A stretch of DNA of 64,000 bases from Phycisphaera sp. (lineage in GTDB: Bacteria > Planctomycetota > Phycisphaerae > Phycisphaerales > Phycisphaeraceae): NCBI GenBank assembly GCA_016125215.1, contig WGMF01000015.1, positions 1 through 64,000 of the forward strand. The letters are read 5' to 3'. This document shows positions 2,987 to 59,654 of this stretch, piece after piece. The notes beneath the pieces were generated by a model. That model did no database searches and was not told where the DNA came from. It was given only the letters and a program-made list of their open reading frames with translations. Position 1 is the first letter of the stretch; every line of letters begins with the position of its first letter. Made by a program: the position numbers and the translations under genes.

Positions 2987-3429
2987 GGATTTAGCCGCAG
3001 ATGAACGCAGATGAACGCCGATGTTTGAACGAAGTAACCGAGCGGATCATCGGGGCTGCGATGGAGGTGTCGAATGTGCTTGGAGTTGGTTTTCTTGAGA
3101 AGGTGTATGAAAACGCACTGGTGGAGGAGTTGAAGTTGCGGGGCCTGCATGGCGTTCGTCAACAGCGATTGCAGGTGCAATATAAAGGCGTCAACATCGG
3201 TGACTATGTGGCAGACTTGGTTGTTGAGAATCAGGTCATTGTGGAGCTCAAATGTGTTGAAGCTCTTGCTCCCGAACACACCGCCCAGTGTCTCAACTAC
3301 CTCAAAGCTACGGGTAAACACATCGCACTACTTCTCAACTTCCAGAAACCACGCCTGGATTTGAAACGGATCGTTCTGGATTTCTAACTTCTGATCTGCG
3401 TCCATCTGCGTTCATCTGCGGCTAAATCC
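2987..3429. mobile_element. Class A inverted-repeat element carrying a GxxExxY gene
   Basis: Two 36-bp arms (2987-3022 and 3394-3429) are inverted copies differing at 2 positions. Each is built of about 10-bp units of the type CAGATGAACG. Between them lies only the GxxExxY gene, whose ATG at 3001 is inside the left arm, so its first residues MNADERR are repeat-encoded. Gene-less copies of the same arm pair occur at 5354-5494 and 50337-50564, with solo arms at 161 and 8230. The cassette sits between sat and an unrelated gene. Mobility is inferred from this distribution. Confidence 0.7.
3001..3387 (+). CDS. GxxExxY protein, PD-(D/E)XK nuclease-like
   Basis: A 128-residue protein of the GxxExxY family. 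The name motif is visible as G30-x-x-E33-x-x-Y36. A PD-(D/E)XK-like core follows: D72 in VADLVVE and E82-x-K84 in IVELK. Members are thought to have the restriction-endonuclease fold; their biochemical role is not established. The start lies inside a class A repeat arm and no clear Shine-Dalgarno precedes it. The gene is visibly lower in GC than its neighbours, consistent with acquisition. Its placement between inverted arms suggests it acts on, or moves with, the repeat; that is inference. Confidence 0.85.
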   Translation: MNADERRCLNEVTERIIGAAMEVSNVLGVGFLEKVYENALVEELKLRGLHGVRQQRLQVQYKGVNIGDYVADLVVENQVIVELKCVEALAPEHTAQCLNYLKATGKHIALLLNFQKPRLDLKRIVLDF

Positions 3430-5349: not shown

Positions 5350-5353
5350 GAAA

Positions 5354-5494
5354 TAGCCGCAGATGAACGCAGATGAACGCCGATAAATACAAAAAGCATA
5401 GAGATCGTGGCTGTGATTACATCGCCTACTTTTGCAAATCGGATTTATTCTTGCTCTTTTTCTATCTGCGTTCATCGGCGTTCATCGGCGGCTA
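5354..5494. repeat. Class A inverted-repeat pair without a gene (MITE-like)
   Basis: The left arm begins TAGCCGCAGATGAACGCAGA at 5354. The right arm ends at 5494 as its inverted copy, with three differences in the first 32 bases; all three are A/C exchanges between CAGATGAACG and CCGATGAACG units. The core of roughly 60 bp carries no reading frame. Compared with the element at 2987, the GxxExxY gene is absent. Confidence 0.85.
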
Positions 5495-5536
5495 CTTCCT
5501 TTCCGTCTGCCCACGGGTTAACATTTCAATCACACG

Positions 5537-11787: not shown

Positions 11788-11820
11788 TCGGACGGTTCAC
11801 TACGCCATGGCTCCGATCCG

Positions 11821-12004
11821 TAACCGCAGATTACGCAGATGACGCAGATGAGAAAAGACATGAACCCCAGAGTCACCCAGAGCACCGAGTCAGAAAATCA
11901 GTGATCCCCCGTTCTTCTCGGCGTCCTCGGCGTCTGGGCGGTTTATCCCGTTTGTCTTGAATCGGTATCTGTGAAATCTGCGCAATCTGCGGTTTCTGTA
12001 TCTG
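11821..12004. repeat. Composite inverted repeat: class B arms enclosing class C arms
   Basis: The outer left arm begins AACCGCAGATTACGCAGATG at 11823. The outer right arm, AATCTGCGCAATCTGCGGTT near 11974-11995, is its inverted relative. Inside lie a class C pair: CACCCAGAGCACCGAGTC near 11873-11891 and its relative CTCGGCGTCCTCGGCGTC near 11917-11935. The 250-bp gap between yebC and the acylphosphatase gene is essentially filled by this structure. Confidence 0.8.
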
Positions 12005-12340: not shown

Positions 12341-12580
12341 CTTGACGGGACCACAGGATCAGAACCTTCAACACAGAGGACGCAGAGAACGCAGAGCAGA
12401 AAAATGATGATGGGCAATGGATGATCGCTGAGGTTTGATCTTCGGTCGCAAGTGATCGGGCTGAATACCAGAAATGCCTTTCTCCTAACCCCTCTCTTCT
12501 CTGTGTTCTCTGTGTTGAATATCCAGCGATTTGGGCGGCTTTTCTGATCCTGTTGATCCCCAGAATCCTGTTATCCTGTC
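12341..12580. repeat. Composite repeat: class C arms around a degenerate class D palindrome
   Basis: Class C arms are at 12367-12396 (TTCAACACAGAGGACGCAGA...) and 12494-12519, inverted to each other. Between them at 12441-12466 is a degenerate class D palindrome (TTCGGTCGCAAGTGATCGGG). Outside them, GGACCACAGGATCAG at 12349 and CTGATCCTGTTGATCC at 12544 form a weaker outer pair with AATCCTGTTATCCTGTC units. No gene is visible in the gap 12323-12590. Confidence 0.75.
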
Positions 12581-12590
12581 CATTCTTCAC

Positions 12591-13613
12591 ATGACCACAC
12601 TCAAAACCATGCCGACGAATTCAACCGCCCAATCCCTGGGCTACCGCATGCCCGCGGAGTGGGAACCCATCGAAGCGGTGTGGGTCGTCACGCCGCACAA
12701 CGCCGAGACCTGGCCCGGGTGCATGGGCGAGGCCCGGTGGGAACACGAGATGTTCTGCCACGCCATACGCCCCTACGCCGACGTGCGCGAGGCCTCGCAC
12801 TTCGACATCCCGACCAACGACTCGTGGATCCGCGACTTCGGGCCGATCTTCGTGAAGAACACCAAGGGTGAACTGGCTGCGCACGACTTTGTCTTCAACG
12901 GCTGGGGCGGTAAGTACGAGACACGCGACCTCGACGACGCGGTCCCGCAACACATCGCTAAACACTTCGACATCCCGCTGTGGAACCACACGCTCGTGCT
13001 CGAGGGCGGCTCGATCGACGTCAACGGCGAGGGCGTCGTCATGACCACCGAGCAGTGCCTGCTCAACAAGAACCGCAACCCCCACCTCACGCGCGAACAG
13101 ATCGTCAGCGAACTGCACAACGCCCTGGGCACCTCACACGTGGTCTGGCTTCCGGGCGGCATCATCGGCGACGACACCGATGGCCACATCGACGACATCG
13201 CCCGCTTCGTCGCCCCACACAGGATCGTCGCGGTTCGGCCCTCGCCCGGCCATCACGATTACGACCTGCTCGAAAAAAACTGGCAGGCCCTTCAACAGGC
13301 ACGCGACGTGGACGGCAAGCCCTTCGACGTGATCGCGCTGCCTGCACCGGAGCCGATCATGTACAACTTTCCCCCCGACCGCTTCGGCCCCGGCGGCGTC
13401 AACCCCGTCCCCGCGAGCTACGCCAACTTCCTTATCGTGAATGAGGCTGTCATCGTCCCGACGTTCCGACAGAAGACCGACGAAGAAGCGTTATCCATCC
13501 TCGAACGCGCCATGCCGGGCAAAAAAATCATCGGCGTCCCCGCCAAACACCTCGTCGTCGGCCTCGGCAGCGTCCACTGCCTGACCATGCAGCAACCCAG
13601 GGCGGGGAACTAA
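12591..13613 (+). CDS. aguA: Agmatine deiminase
   Basis: Hydrolyses agmatine to N-carbamoylputrescine and ammonia, the second step of arginine-decarboxylase putrescine synthesis. From the ATG at 12591 it has 340 residues. Family motifs are NDSWIRDFGP, LEGGSIDVNGEG and GDDTDGHIDDIARF, and the catalytic cysteine is in LGSVHCLTMQQ near the C-terminus (about Cys330). The ATG at 12609 is an equally plausible start; the frame upstream of 12591 runs through repeat DNA. No N-carbamoylputrescine amidase gene is adjacent. Confidence 0.93.
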   Translation: MTTLKTMPTNSTAQSLGYRMPAEWEPIEAVWVVTPHNAETWPGCMGEARWEHEMFCHAIRPYADVREASHFDIPTNDSWIRDFGPIFVKNTKGELAAHDFVFNGWGGKYETRDLDDAVPQHIAKHFDIPLWNHTLVLEGGSIDVNGEGVVMTTEQCLLNKNRNPHLTREQIVSELHNALGTSHVVWLPGGIIGDDTDGHIDDIARFVAPHRIVAVRPSPGHHDYDLLEKNWQALQQARDVDGKPFDVIALPAPEPIMYNFPPDRFGPGGVNPVPASYANFLIVNEAVIVPTFRQKTDEEALSILERAMPGKKIIGVPAKHLVVGLGSVHCLTMQQPRAGN

Positions 13614-13778
13614 CCGCCGAGACACCGAGGGCACCGAGAAGAACAAGGCGGAGTTATTCACAGATTAAACAGATTGCGCGGATGAAGACAGAAAACCTAA
13701 GTCTTGGGTTCGAATCGGTGTAATCTGCGGATCAATCCGCTTTTGCTTCTTCTCGGTGCCCTCGGTGTCTCGGTGGTT
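13612..13778. repeat. Nested inverted repeat: class C arms enclosing class B arms
   Basis: Outer class C arms at 13612-13641 and 13749-13778 are 30 bp and match at 29 positions (AACCGCCGAGACACCGAGGG in the left arm). Inside lie class B units at about 13661-13684 and 13717-13740. The left arm begins on the aguA stop codon, and the right arm ends about 20 bp before the start of the next gene. Confidence 0.85.
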
Positions 13779-13797
13779 CATCCCAGAGGACTTCAAC

Positions 13798-26529: not shown

Positions 26530-26588
26530 ATAGAACCCGTTCAAATAAACTCATGGAATTGACAACCCAACAACATCAAATAAATGAC

Positions 26589-26883
26589 GAACCACAGAGG
26601 CGCAGAGGCACAGAGAATAGAGATTTTCTAACAGAAAGAGCACAGCCGGGACAACATTTGCCCGGAGAAATACGTGGGAGTCGAGACAGAAACCACAGAT
26701 GTCGCAGATCACACAGATTCAAGGCAGATTTTCCGGATCATGAATCTGTATCGATCTGTGAAATCTGCGCAATCTGTGGTTTCTTCCCCGGCCCCGTTTA
26801 TCCGTGCTCTGATTTCAAGTCATTCTGACACGTGCTCTGAAAATTATTTGCCTTCCTCCGTGTTCTCTGTGTCCTCTGTGGTG
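26589..26883. repeat. Nested inverted repeat: class C arms enclosing class B arms
   Basis: Outer class C arms lie at 26589-26617 (GAACCACAGAGGCGCAGAGG...) and 26853-26883. Inner class B arms lie at 26684-26723 (AGAAACCACAGATGTCGCAG...) and 26741-26784. The 368-bp gap between the FAD oxidoreductase gene and the DAHP synthase stop contains only this structure, about 66 bp of unassigned sequence between outer and inner left arms, and a short spacer at the centre. Confidence 0.85.
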
Positions 26884-26897
26884 AAATCTCTTTAGTC

Positions 26898-27971: not shown

Positions 27972-28044
27972 GCCGCCTTAGCTCAATTGGCAGAGCACCG
28001 CTTTTGTAAAGCGAAGGTTGCCGGTTCGATTCCGGCAGGCGGCT
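27972..28044 (+). tRNA. tRNA-Thr (anticodon TGT)
   Basis: A 73-base cloverleaf. The acceptor stem GCCGCCT pairs with AGGCGGC, the D arm is GCTC/GAGC, the anticodon loop is TTTGTAA with TGT at the anticodon, and the T arm is GCCGG/CCGGC around TTCGATT. One mismatch closes the top of the anticodon stem. CCA is not encoded. A short tandem repeat and a class D repeat follow directly. Confidence 0.93.
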
Positions 28045-50328: not shown

Positions 50329-50336
50329 AGAAGAAG

Positions 50337-50564
50337 TAGCCGCAGATGAACGCAGATGAACGCAGATAAAGACCGAGAAACTCAGGTTCACGCGGGGGTC
50401 GCGGGGAGCGCTGGGAAAGACAATTGAATAATCAAAAAACCGACGCGTTACAGCGTCGGTTTTTTATTGTTTAACTCTTAATTTCTTCCCCCTCGCTCTG
50501 GGCGACCCCCGCGTGAAATCTTCCCTTCCCCATCTGCGTCCATCCGCGTTCATCTGCGGTTGAT
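50337..50564. repeat. Class A inverted-repeat pair around a terminator
   Basis: The left arm runs from TAGCCGCAGATGAACGCAGA at 50337 to about 50415. The right arm, 50484-50564, is its inverted relative and includes the shared inner block TTCACGCGGGGGTCGC. No gene lies between; the centre holds the hairpin terminator at 50434. The pair fills the gap between two convergent genes. Confidence 0.85.
50434..50465. terminator. Bidirectional intrinsic terminator
   Basis: AAAAAACCGACGC (50434-50446) and GCGTCGGTTTTTT (50453-50465) form a perfect 13-bp stem around GTTACA, with T-runs on both strands. It serves the convergent carbonic anhydrase-chemoreceptor and nuoH genes and is central within the class A pair. 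Confidence 0.93.
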
Positions 50565-52115
50565 TCACGCCGGCTCGGGCACGGGCTCGGTTTCCGCCTG
50601 CGGCTGCGGCCCGCGGGTGAACGGCACGGTGCGACCGACCGGCATGACGTCGGGGTAGAGCGTCTTGAAGGGTTGGCTCTTGTGTTTGAAGATCACACCC
50701 ATCCAGCCCAGGGCCATGATGAGCACGAACGACGCGACGATGAGCAGGCCGAATGCCGTGGTGGCGATCTGCGAAATCTTCTGGAGCGTCGGCGTTTCGC
50801 TTGCCAGGTGGCCCAGGCGGGTGATCGTGTTGGCGGACTCCGACCAGTGGCCGTGGATATCCGAGTTGAACGCGTAAGCGCCCTGGGGCTGCGGCACGAC
50901 GGCGATCCACACCGCCACACCCGCCAGCACCGCCAGGCTCAAGGGCAGGAGCACCTTGACACACGCGTGCAGCACCTGGTCGATGCGGATGCGCGGCAGC
51001 GTCCACCGCAACCAGATCTGCACCCAGATGACCGTCATCGCCTTGAGCGTGAACCACACCGCGCCCCACACGTGGACCAGGAGCAAGCCGATCGGCCCGA
51101 CGTGCAGCATCGTCGCCTTGTCCGTCCACGTCACCGCGTGGTCCAGCGCGCCGGACATGTACACCTGCCCCGCGTGGACGGGGTCGTAGCCGACGAACCA
51201 GTAGACCGGGTCCATCAGCCACTGCGTGTGGCCGATCATGAACCCGTCACCCAGCGGGCTGTTCCACCCGCCGAGGAAGAGCGTCGTCTGGATCGCGCCG
51301 ACGATGAACATCGCGCCGTACTCGGCGAAAAAGAAAAACGACCAGCGGATGCCGGAGTATTCGGTGTGGAAGCCCGCGACGAGTTCGGATTCGGATTCGG
51401 GCAGGTCGAAGGGCGCGCGTTTGTTCGACGCTAATGATGCGACAAAGTAGATCATGAACGCCGCGAACATGAGCGGGCTGTGGAAGATGAACCAGTCCCA
51501 GATGCCGCCGCCCTGGAGGTAGGACAATTCGACAAGGTTGAGCGTCCCGGCCACGAGCACGCCACAGAGGATGGAGACGCCCAGCGGGATCTCGTAGCTG
51601 ACCATCTGGCAGACCTCGCGCATCGCGCCGTAGATCGCCCACTTGGAGTTGCTGCCCCAACCGGCCATGATGACGCCCATCGCCTCGACCGCTAAGACCG
51701 CCAGCAGGTAGAGCACGCCGATGTTGAAGTTCGGCTCAAAGACCCACAGCGGCGCGAAGGGTAGCGCGAGGAAGGCTGCGAAGACGGGTGTGAAGGCGAT
51801 GTAGGGCGCGAACTTGAAGAGGAAGCCGTCCGCCCCGGAGGGCATGAGGTCTTCCTTGAGGATGAGCTTGATCCCGTCGGCCAATGATTGGGCCCAGCCG
51901 TGCCACCCGCCGACGTGCATCGGCCCGACGCGCGACTGGATGTGGCCGGCGACCTTGCGTTCCCACCAGATGCTGAACATCGCCACGAGCGAGATGATGC
52001 CCACAAACACCGTGGCCACGATGGTGAAGCGGATGATGATGGCGATCCACACCCCCCACGTCGCGGGGTCGAGGTGTCTCCAACTGGCAAGCTGCTCGGC
52101 AAAATCACGGATCAT
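50565..52115 (-). CDS. nuoH: NADH-quinone oxidoreductase subunit H
   Basis: Membrane subunit of respiratory complex I next to the quinone site. It has 516 residues from the ATG at 52115, clearly longer than the usual 320-430. Core motifs: WERKVAGHIQSRVGPMHVGG, PFDLPESESELVAGFHTEYSG and FFFFAEYGAMF. Extra length is in an insert around QWLMDPVYWFVGYDPVHAG and in a proline/glutamate-rich C-terminal tail. No other nuo gene is within the window, so it is detached from the usual cluster or the start of a cluster is broken. Confidence 0.92.
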   Translation of the reverse strand: MIRDFAEQLASWRHLDPATWGVWIAIIIRFTIVATVFVGIISLVAMFSIWWERKVAGHIQSRVGPMHVGGWHGWAQSLADGIKLILKEDLMPSGADGFLFKFAPYIAFTPVFAAFLALPFAPLWVFEPNFNIGVLYLLAVLAVEAMGVIMAGWGSNSKWAIYGAMREVCQMVSYEIPLGVSILCGVLVAGTLNLVELSYLQGGGIWDWFIFHSPLMFAAFMIYFVASLASNKRAPFDLPESESELVAGFHTEYSGIRWSFFFFAEYGAMFIVGAIQTTLFLGGWNSPLGDGFMIGHTQWLMDPVYWFVGYDPVHAGQVYMSGALDHAVTWTDKATMLHVGPIGLLLVHVWGAVWFTLKAMTVIWVQIWLRWTLPRIRIDQVLHACVKVLLPLSLAVLAGVAVWIAVVPQPQGAYAFNSDIHGHWSESANTITRLGHLASETPTLQKISQIATTAFGLLIVASFVLIMALGWMGVIFKHKSQPFKTLYPDVMPVGRTVPFTRGPQPQAETEPVPEPA

Positions 52116-58377: not shown

Positions 58378-58430
58378 GGCCGATTGACTCGCCAAGGGAT
58401 TCAACTATCTTTTCATGCCAACCGTAGTAT

Positions 58431-58690
58431 GAACCACCGTGACACCGAGAACACCGAGGAAAGACCAACCCTCCGCAGATGACGCAGATTCAAACCGGAA
58501 CATTTACCGCAGAGAGCGCAGAGATCGCTGAGAAAACCATTAAGTTTAGTGATATGGATCACAAAATGGTTTCTCTGCGAACTCCGCGCTCTCTGCGGTA
58601 AACCAGATCGATGCCTTGAATCTGTGAAATCTGCGTAATCTGCGGATAACTCTTTTCCCGGTTTGTCCCTGTGCCGCTCTGTGGTTATTC
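58431..58690. repeat. Triple-nested inverted repeat upstream of sdhC
   Basis: Outer class C arms at 58431-58461 and 58661-58690; class B arms at 58471-58493 and 58616-58646; inner class C-like arms at 58503-58540 and 58566-58602. Pairing is in strict mirror order, so the whole 260 bp can fold as one long interrupted hairpin. No gene lies in it. Confidence 0.88.
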
Positions 58691-59559: not shown

Positions 59560-59654
59560 GATACAGAAACCACAGATTTCGCAGATTACACAGAATAAGA
59601 AAAATCCGGTCTGAATAATCTGCGGCATCTGCGCAATCTGCGGTTTCTGTATCG
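59560..59654. repeat. Class B inverted pair between sdhC and sdhA
   Basis: The left arm GATACAGAAACCACAGATTT (59560) and the right arm ending CGGTTTCTGTATCG (59654) are inverted relatives over about 40 bp, with a core of about 12 bp. The pair sits in the sdhC-sdhA intergenic space. Confidence 0.85.

Follow-up and report, generated by a model that had tools for sequence, protein, structure and literature searches.

We consider it rather probable that the nested palindromes of the window (the whole stretch of 64,000 nucleotides analysed here) are small mobile hairpins with GxxExxY-bearing parents, stacked by sequential insertion at hairpin tips. The movement of these elements is something that we infer from sequence. 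The key to the identity of the repeats is a GxxExxY gene enclosed by X arms at positions 2987-3429, which was missing from the earlier note on this DNA. The triple-nested palindrome that this note had placed at 58431-58690 was borne out: it spans 58429-58687, as indicated by the arm profiles and by the complementarity of its two inner layers. The other nests that it had named, at 11821-12004, 13612-13778 and 26589-26883, are all real according to the arm profiles, each with two layers (Table 1).

The arms are built from a short leader followed by about three tandem units of 8, 9 or 10 nt, and step size and unit sequence go together. The unit is CGCAGATGAA in the X10 class and CGCAGATNN in the B9 class, the C9 and C8 classes are characterized by CACAGAG with 9- or 8-nt steps, and the D class by CACCGAG with a step of 8 and then of 9. 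When the five class profiles were run at a threshold of at least 10 bits over 1,097,673 of the 4,039,219 bases of the own genome, 227 arms were recovered against 6 in the reversed control. Over the whole genome, a two-unit pattern gave 620 matches against 2 for the reversed pattern, and the arms are therefore not due to chance. Their clusters range from single pairs up to triples, in which the same succession returns, complete or partial, at several places: B lies between an outer c, C or D and an innermost C9 (for example L095:12082-12352, L338:89-304 and the 58431 site). The strict mirror order described earlier holds at 58431 but is not a universal rule, since the arms of another cluster of the same genome (L097:18333-18585) cross in the order B C B' C'. 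Besides, the loops of two C elements (L034:6725-6899 and L046:9252-9420) carry short arrays like GACAGGAGTCAGGAG and ATCAATCATCAATCA, which resemble arms of further unit families.

Table 1. Repeat elements, arms and the GxxExxY gene in the window (positions of the window).
Feature	Position	Strand	Remarks
Full-length element: X-type arms (10-nt units CGCAGATGAA) around GxxExxY gene	2987..3429	+	Arms 94% complementary; 44.2 and 43.3 bits (L109)
X arms of full-length element	2987-3022 and 3394-3429	inverted	Flank GxxExxY gene
GxxExxY ORF, 128 aa, PF13366 PD-(D/E)XK nuclease (predicted)	3001..3387	+	PF13366 and TIGR04256 profile matches
Short X-type element without gene	5350..5498	.	Inverted-repeat pair and units
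Two-layer nest, B arms around C8/D pair (B+ c+ D- B-)	11820..11997	.	Arm profiles
Single-layer C9 element	12366..12520	.	Inverted-repeat pair
Two-layer nest, D arms around B arms (D+ B+ B- D-)	13610..13781	.	Arm profiles; one pair 97% complementary
Two-layer nest, C8/C9 arms around B element (c+ B+ B- C-)	26588..26886	.	Spacers of ~70 nt on each side
Short X-type element	50333..50566	.	Encloses second, GC-rich inverted pair 50387-50420 / 50484-50517
Triple nest: outer left arm, D type, units ACCACCGTG ACACCGAG AACACCGAG	58429..58459	+	31.4 bits
Triple nest: middle left arm, B type, CCGCAGATGACGCAGATT	58473..58491	+	19.5 bits; two clear units, third faint
Triple nest: inner left arm, C9 type, ACCGCAGAGAGCGCAGAG...	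58502..58534	+	34.5 bits
Triple nest: central loop	58535..58570	.	Between C9 arms
Triple nest: inner right arm, C9 type	58571..58602	-	31.2 bits
Triple nest: middle right arm, B type	58617..58648	-	38.2 bits
Triple nest: outer right arm, decayed C8 type	~58667..58687	-	5.5 bits, within reversed-control noise
Single-layer B element	59560..59653	.	Class as inner element at 26688-26784

Across the triple nest, the arms follow each other in the order outer(+), B(+), C(+), loop, C(-), B(-), outer(-). Both inner layers are strong, with 91% complementarity over the 33 nt of the C pair and 95% over the 19 nt of the B pair. The outermost pair, which was missing from the output of the inverted-repeat search, is weak, a good D-type left arm facing a decayed C8-type right arm whose 5.5 bits correspond to the level reached by chance matches. 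Folded as single-stranded DNA, the stretch (267 nt) reached -70 kcal/mol versus -28.8 +/- 3.5 for shuffled sequences (z = -11.7), 0 of 200 shuffles folding as well, and all three layers are paired in the predicted fold. The nest is intergenic and lies between protein genes, in the gap upstream of an sdhC-like gene. The neighbouring genes are kept together in 26 of 29 loci of relatives, all from outside the host's own genus, and none of the 26 gaps found there between the same two genes harbours B, C, D or X arms. At one locus (L074, genome G024), the gap upstream of the sdhC homologue contains a different inverted repeat with CAGGAAA-like units. No Rfam family matched at the nests, the sole Rfam match in the window being a tRNA gene at 27972-28044.

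The start codon of the GxxExxY gene sits within the left X arm (3001-3021 of the window) and, as a consequence, the first residues of the protein (MNADERR) are encoded by the repeat units. The protein matched PF13366 with 143.5 bits (cut-off 22, E 4.8e-42) and TIGR04256 with 147 bits (cut-off 35, E 2.8e-43). E33, Y36, D72, E82 and K84 are among the residues that are invariant in 36 of 36 aligned GxxExxY sequences, and the pattern formed by E33, D72, E82 and K84 presumably reflects an intact PD-(D/E)XK site. The protein is predicted to be a PD-(D/E)XK nuclease with a Cas4/lambda-exonuclease-like fold. Its AlphaFold2 model (pLDDT 95.7) had SSO0001, which we take to be a Cas4-type protein, as top structural neighbour (Z 10.0, rmsd 3.6 over 100 residues), followed by tied nucleases. 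Using Foldseek, lambda exonuclease and LHK-Exo came near the top, with E values of about 5e-4 to 1e-3 for the best matches. In the list ranked by Z, Hjc-type junction resolvases came further down (7.3, a value shared by many other entries). By sequence, the PDB contained no relative at E <= 0.001, and PADLOC gave no match for the window protein and weak Cas4-type matches for some members of the family.

The survey of GxxExxY genes took in 159 loci, drawn from the family, from the phylum and from 80 named genomes that represent many phyla and include archaea. The inverted repeat around the gene was above the 99th percentile of 540 position controls for 138 of the 154 genes with enough flank, in many phyla (9 of 163 genes were excluded for short flanks, and one locus comparison excluded 4 of 80 loci in the same way). 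In the own genome, four of the five GxxExxY genes bear short-element arm types on both sides (X10, B9, C9 and D), the units of the D-class parent (L212) being diverged (GCCAAG) with moderate scores of 11.0 and 16.4 bits. The fifth gene has CGCGAAG units, and none of the five is a full-length parent of the C8 class. A relative likewise has a 125-aa GxxExxY gene enclosed by arms of the same kind as those of the short elements.

Arm type follows the nuclease clade. Indeed, when each protein was compared with the nearest one differing by at least 30%, the unit type, GAT or GAG, was the same in 109 of 114 comparisons (chance 51%); within the own-family/phylum subset this held for 60 of 64 (chance 62%). 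This comparison covered 133 of the 154 genes (arm score of at least 28, no stop), 19 of undecided unit type being omitted; the named loci had been chosen for their resemblance to the window protein and are GAT-type wherever decidable (50 of 61 entered, 11 undecided), though their phyla are distant. Arms that are more distant also tend to belong to more distant proteins (Spearman 0.36, null maximum 0.10). Genomes of the family with more GxxExxY copies had a higher net arm count (rho 0.73, 51 genomes), a single G034 match below the family cut-off being counted as one gene. GxxExxY genes exceeded the cut-off in 69 of 149 genomes sampled from the phylum. Spread by phages or plasmids is not indicated, since matches occurred in none of 50,697 phage records and in 8 of 72,556 plasmid records.

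The nests themselves are more numerous than expected. The 90 arm pairs contain 22 direct parent-child nests versus 4.4 expected from random insertion over the noncoding DNA of a crude gene map (ORFs of at least 100 aa; p 3e-10). This excess had p = 4.8e-5 when half of the noncoding DNA was taken as open to insertion, and p = 0.16 when a quarter was. A stricter arm pairing without two-unit arms gave 10 nests where the profile method gave 22. After removal of 3 of the 22 as copies, the inner elements of the remaining 19 lay on average 0.116 loop lengths off the centre, versus 0.25 for a uniform distribution (KS p = 1.1e-4). Hence, the proposal that elements insert at the centre of others is supported in the own genome. 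It is not by the nine nests from other genomes taken alone (275 loci, same profiles; p = 0.28), three of which are strongly off-centre; all 28 nests pooled gave p = 2e-5. The partners of a nest usually differ in class, in 17 of 19 own cases (2 same-class nests versus 7.3 expected, p = 0.0085; p 3e-4 without X) and in 9 of 9 from other genomes. X elements take part in none of the own nests, against 5.4 expected, and one is nested in G035 (L284).

Mirror order alone proves little, as any palindrome landing within another yields it, and the symmetry of long spacers is weaker evidence because these are partly element sequence. Decayed middle layers were considered as the origin of symmetrical long spacers, and no significant complementarity was found in four of five cases; the fifth (L337) was marginal (16 versus a 95th percentile of 15), with B-type sequence on both sides. 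The other origin offered by the earlier note, a common hairpin whose stem diversifies, is not favoured. Under such stem covariation, arms would resemble their own partners most, and this was observed for C9 (p = 0.002) and C8 (p = 0.045), marginally for X (p = 0.09), but not for B and D, whose arms match their partners no better than they match arms of other pairs (p = 0.66 and 0.52).

Copying of whole elements is suggested by their loops. A c(B)c composite occurs at three sites of the own genome with inner loops 80-91% identical, its B part is also present at a fourth site, and a B element whose 25-nt loop is conserved was found by itself as well as within c arms (L341:12494). Composites thus appear to be copied as a whole, and the inner elements occur separately too. 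The loops of the short elements are mostly unrelated. No target-site duplication was detected in 56 elements, flank sharing being 2.6 versus 2.9 in re-paired controls.

Turnover is apparent in another genus of the family (G008, G035 and G067-G070). The L114 gap is empty and short in G068, is occupied by a GxxExxY element in G067 and G070, by a GxxExxY element with other units in G035 and by a different short hairpin in G069. In G008 (L265 ~2440-2830), it contains arms similar to those of the G067 element, with an unrelated ORF in the loop. A G035 element with B-like arms and at least a right outer arm (L291 ~840-1198) is absent from five of five congeners. At site 1 (L288:954-1240), C(B)C is found in G035, G067, G070 and G008, C only in G068 and another C9 element in G069. 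A single-level version of a nested site had been called for to date the layers, and G068, although of another genus than the host, provides one without the inner layer. It does not prove insertion, however. In an unrooted tree built from about 2.6 kb of flanks, G068 is sister to G035 (support 1.00), and since this sister and three other species are two-layered, the single layer of G068 is most simply explained by its inner layer having been lost. Dating by this site was consequently set aside, the tree making loss simpler than repeated gain. Elsewhere, two ORFs of 89 and 297 aa that resemble by eye an IS3-type transposase pair lie between C-type arms 1.7 kb apart in G036 (L081:2337-4123).

In the mechanism that we propose, the arms would mark the two ends of small mobile hairpins. 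In its full-length form, of about 440 nt, such an element consists of two inverted arms of about three 8-10-nt units each around one GxxExxY gene, and the matching arm classes suggest that the short palindromes are non-autonomous derivatives which kept only the arms. The GxxExxY nuclease would probably recognise the units of its own arm class and act on its arms in the form of an extruded hairpin or cruciform, the short copies using it in trans. The element would then be inserted anew into another hairpin, often of a different class, at its tip or close to it and without duplicating the target, through a putative chemistry in which host repair may supply the strand-transfer steps. Repeated rounds would stack hairpins into mirror-ordered nests, and the layers at 58431 would correspond to a C9 element inside a B element inside a C8/D-type element.

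Three other explanations have to be weighed against these insertions by GxxExxY-parented hairpins. The nests could result from random insertion in noncoding DNA, insertions into loops being harmless and remaining recognisable without any targeting of the centre. The number of nests would not be unusual if only a quarter of the noncoding DNA were open, and the three strongly off-centre nests among the nine from other genomes are in line with it. However, the count is well above expectation with half of the noncoding DNA open, the centring of the 19 own pairs is not explained by the survival of loop insertions, and same-class nests are too rare, which makes this explanation decidedly improbable. 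Alternatively, the hairpins could be kept for a cellular job, such as transcription end, mRNA stability or protein binding, with longer stems favoured so that nests arise and mobility is incidental. The very stable fold at 58431, the pair-specific similarity of the C9 and C8 arms and the C(B)C nest common to four species at one site would fit such a role. It nevertheless appears quite unlikely given the B and D arms, which lack this pair-specific similarity, the high turnover in one genus, where a given gap can hold different elements, and the orthologous 58431 gap of relatives, where no such arms occur.

It is also unlikely, if somewhat less so, that the short palindromes are moved by another host enzyme (RAYT/Y1 or an IS transposase), GxxExxY being a captured passenger. 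Seven Y1_Tnp (RAYT) genes are present in the own genome, 6 of them above the family cut-off, and other cargo is found between such arms, i.e., the unrelated ORF at the L114 site of G008 and the IS3-like ORFs at L081 of G036. Yet each of the seven Y1 loci comes with its own inverted repeats, which are mostly GC-rich and REP-like, and B, C, D or X arms of at least 8 bits occur at none of them, so that RAYT is not favoured as mobiliser. Besides, the agreement between arm type and GxxExxY clade holds across phyla. Insertion at hairpin tips by elements with GxxExxY parents is the reading that we prefer.

The earlier note had called central targeting a new type of target-site choice, which is too strong in view of precedents. 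IS1397, ISKpn1, IS621 and ISPpu9/10 insert into REP palindromes (PMC1525189) and share with the present elements a palindrome-specific target choice, but they are transposase-coding IS with fixed ends and not, as here, stacked palindromes of several classes. IS1272 targets inverted repeats of differing sequence and leaves no target-site duplication, as observed here (PMC5678879); in contrast, IS1272 has a transposase gene and takes the place of the repeat that it targets. The different hairpins in the same gap of congeners are as replacement of this type would give, whereas the outer arms of nests persist around the inserts. The 23S rRNA intervening sequences (IVS), which replace tetraloops of rRNA helices and carry an S23 ORF, are likewise small hairpin elements with one ORF in the loop, seated where a hairpin loop was (PMC4990558). 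In contrast to IVS, which RNase III removes from the 23S rRNA, the present elements are intergenic, outside rRNA, with units of 8-10 nt, and GxxExxY is a predicted nuclease and not an S23 four-helix-bundle protein, the TIGR02436 elements forming a separate set.

REP/REPIN-RAYT systems similarly combine many short intergenic palindromes with a nuclease-type gene that is present in few copies and lies between palindromes of the same kind. Here, in contrast, the flanked gene is a PD-(D/E)XK GxxExxY gene and not a Y1 HUH enzyme, the arms are tandem 8-10-nt units, and the own RAYTs have different palindromes. The present elements also recall MITEs, being short and gene-free with inverted ends and many intergenic copies. 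They differ from them by the lack of target-site duplication in the elements compared, by mostly unrelated loops, unusual for MITE-type copying, and by the parents found here, which share their ends and carry GxxExxY and no transposase. Within the literature covered, which left most subscription journals outside, no account of GxxExxY elements and nothing for the repeat letters themselves was found. Hairpin targeting has precedents, and a transposase-less nuclease element doing so would be new.

GxxExxY genes are widespread yet little studied, and are annotated merely as "GxxExxY protein". If the proposed explanation is true, a mobile element would be built around this family, its arms would carry a recognition code that can be read from unit sequence and spacing, the short palindromes that a genome contains by the hundred would become interpretable, and a testable model for the choice of hairpin tips would be available, bearing on the origin of rRNA intervening sequences. 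Much more tentatively, and rather doubtfully, bacteria and archaea may harbour a transposase-less class of mobile DNA whose Cas4-like GxxExxY nuclease would read the short unit repeated in its own arms and send gene-bearing and gene-free copies into the hairpin tips of other classes, with same-class immunity and Russian-doll palindromes as outcome; together with the four-helix-bundle elements, it might share tip targeting with the 23S rRNA IVS. The IVS link is worth testing because of the inverted arms of the four-helix-bundle (TIGR02436) genes of the family (L348-L377). Their arms were above the 99th percentile of controls for 22 of 27 genes, 3 of 30 short loci being skipped and the gene being assumed at the locus centre. 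They apparently consist of ~7-nt units, e.g., GGGGTTA and AAAGGTC.
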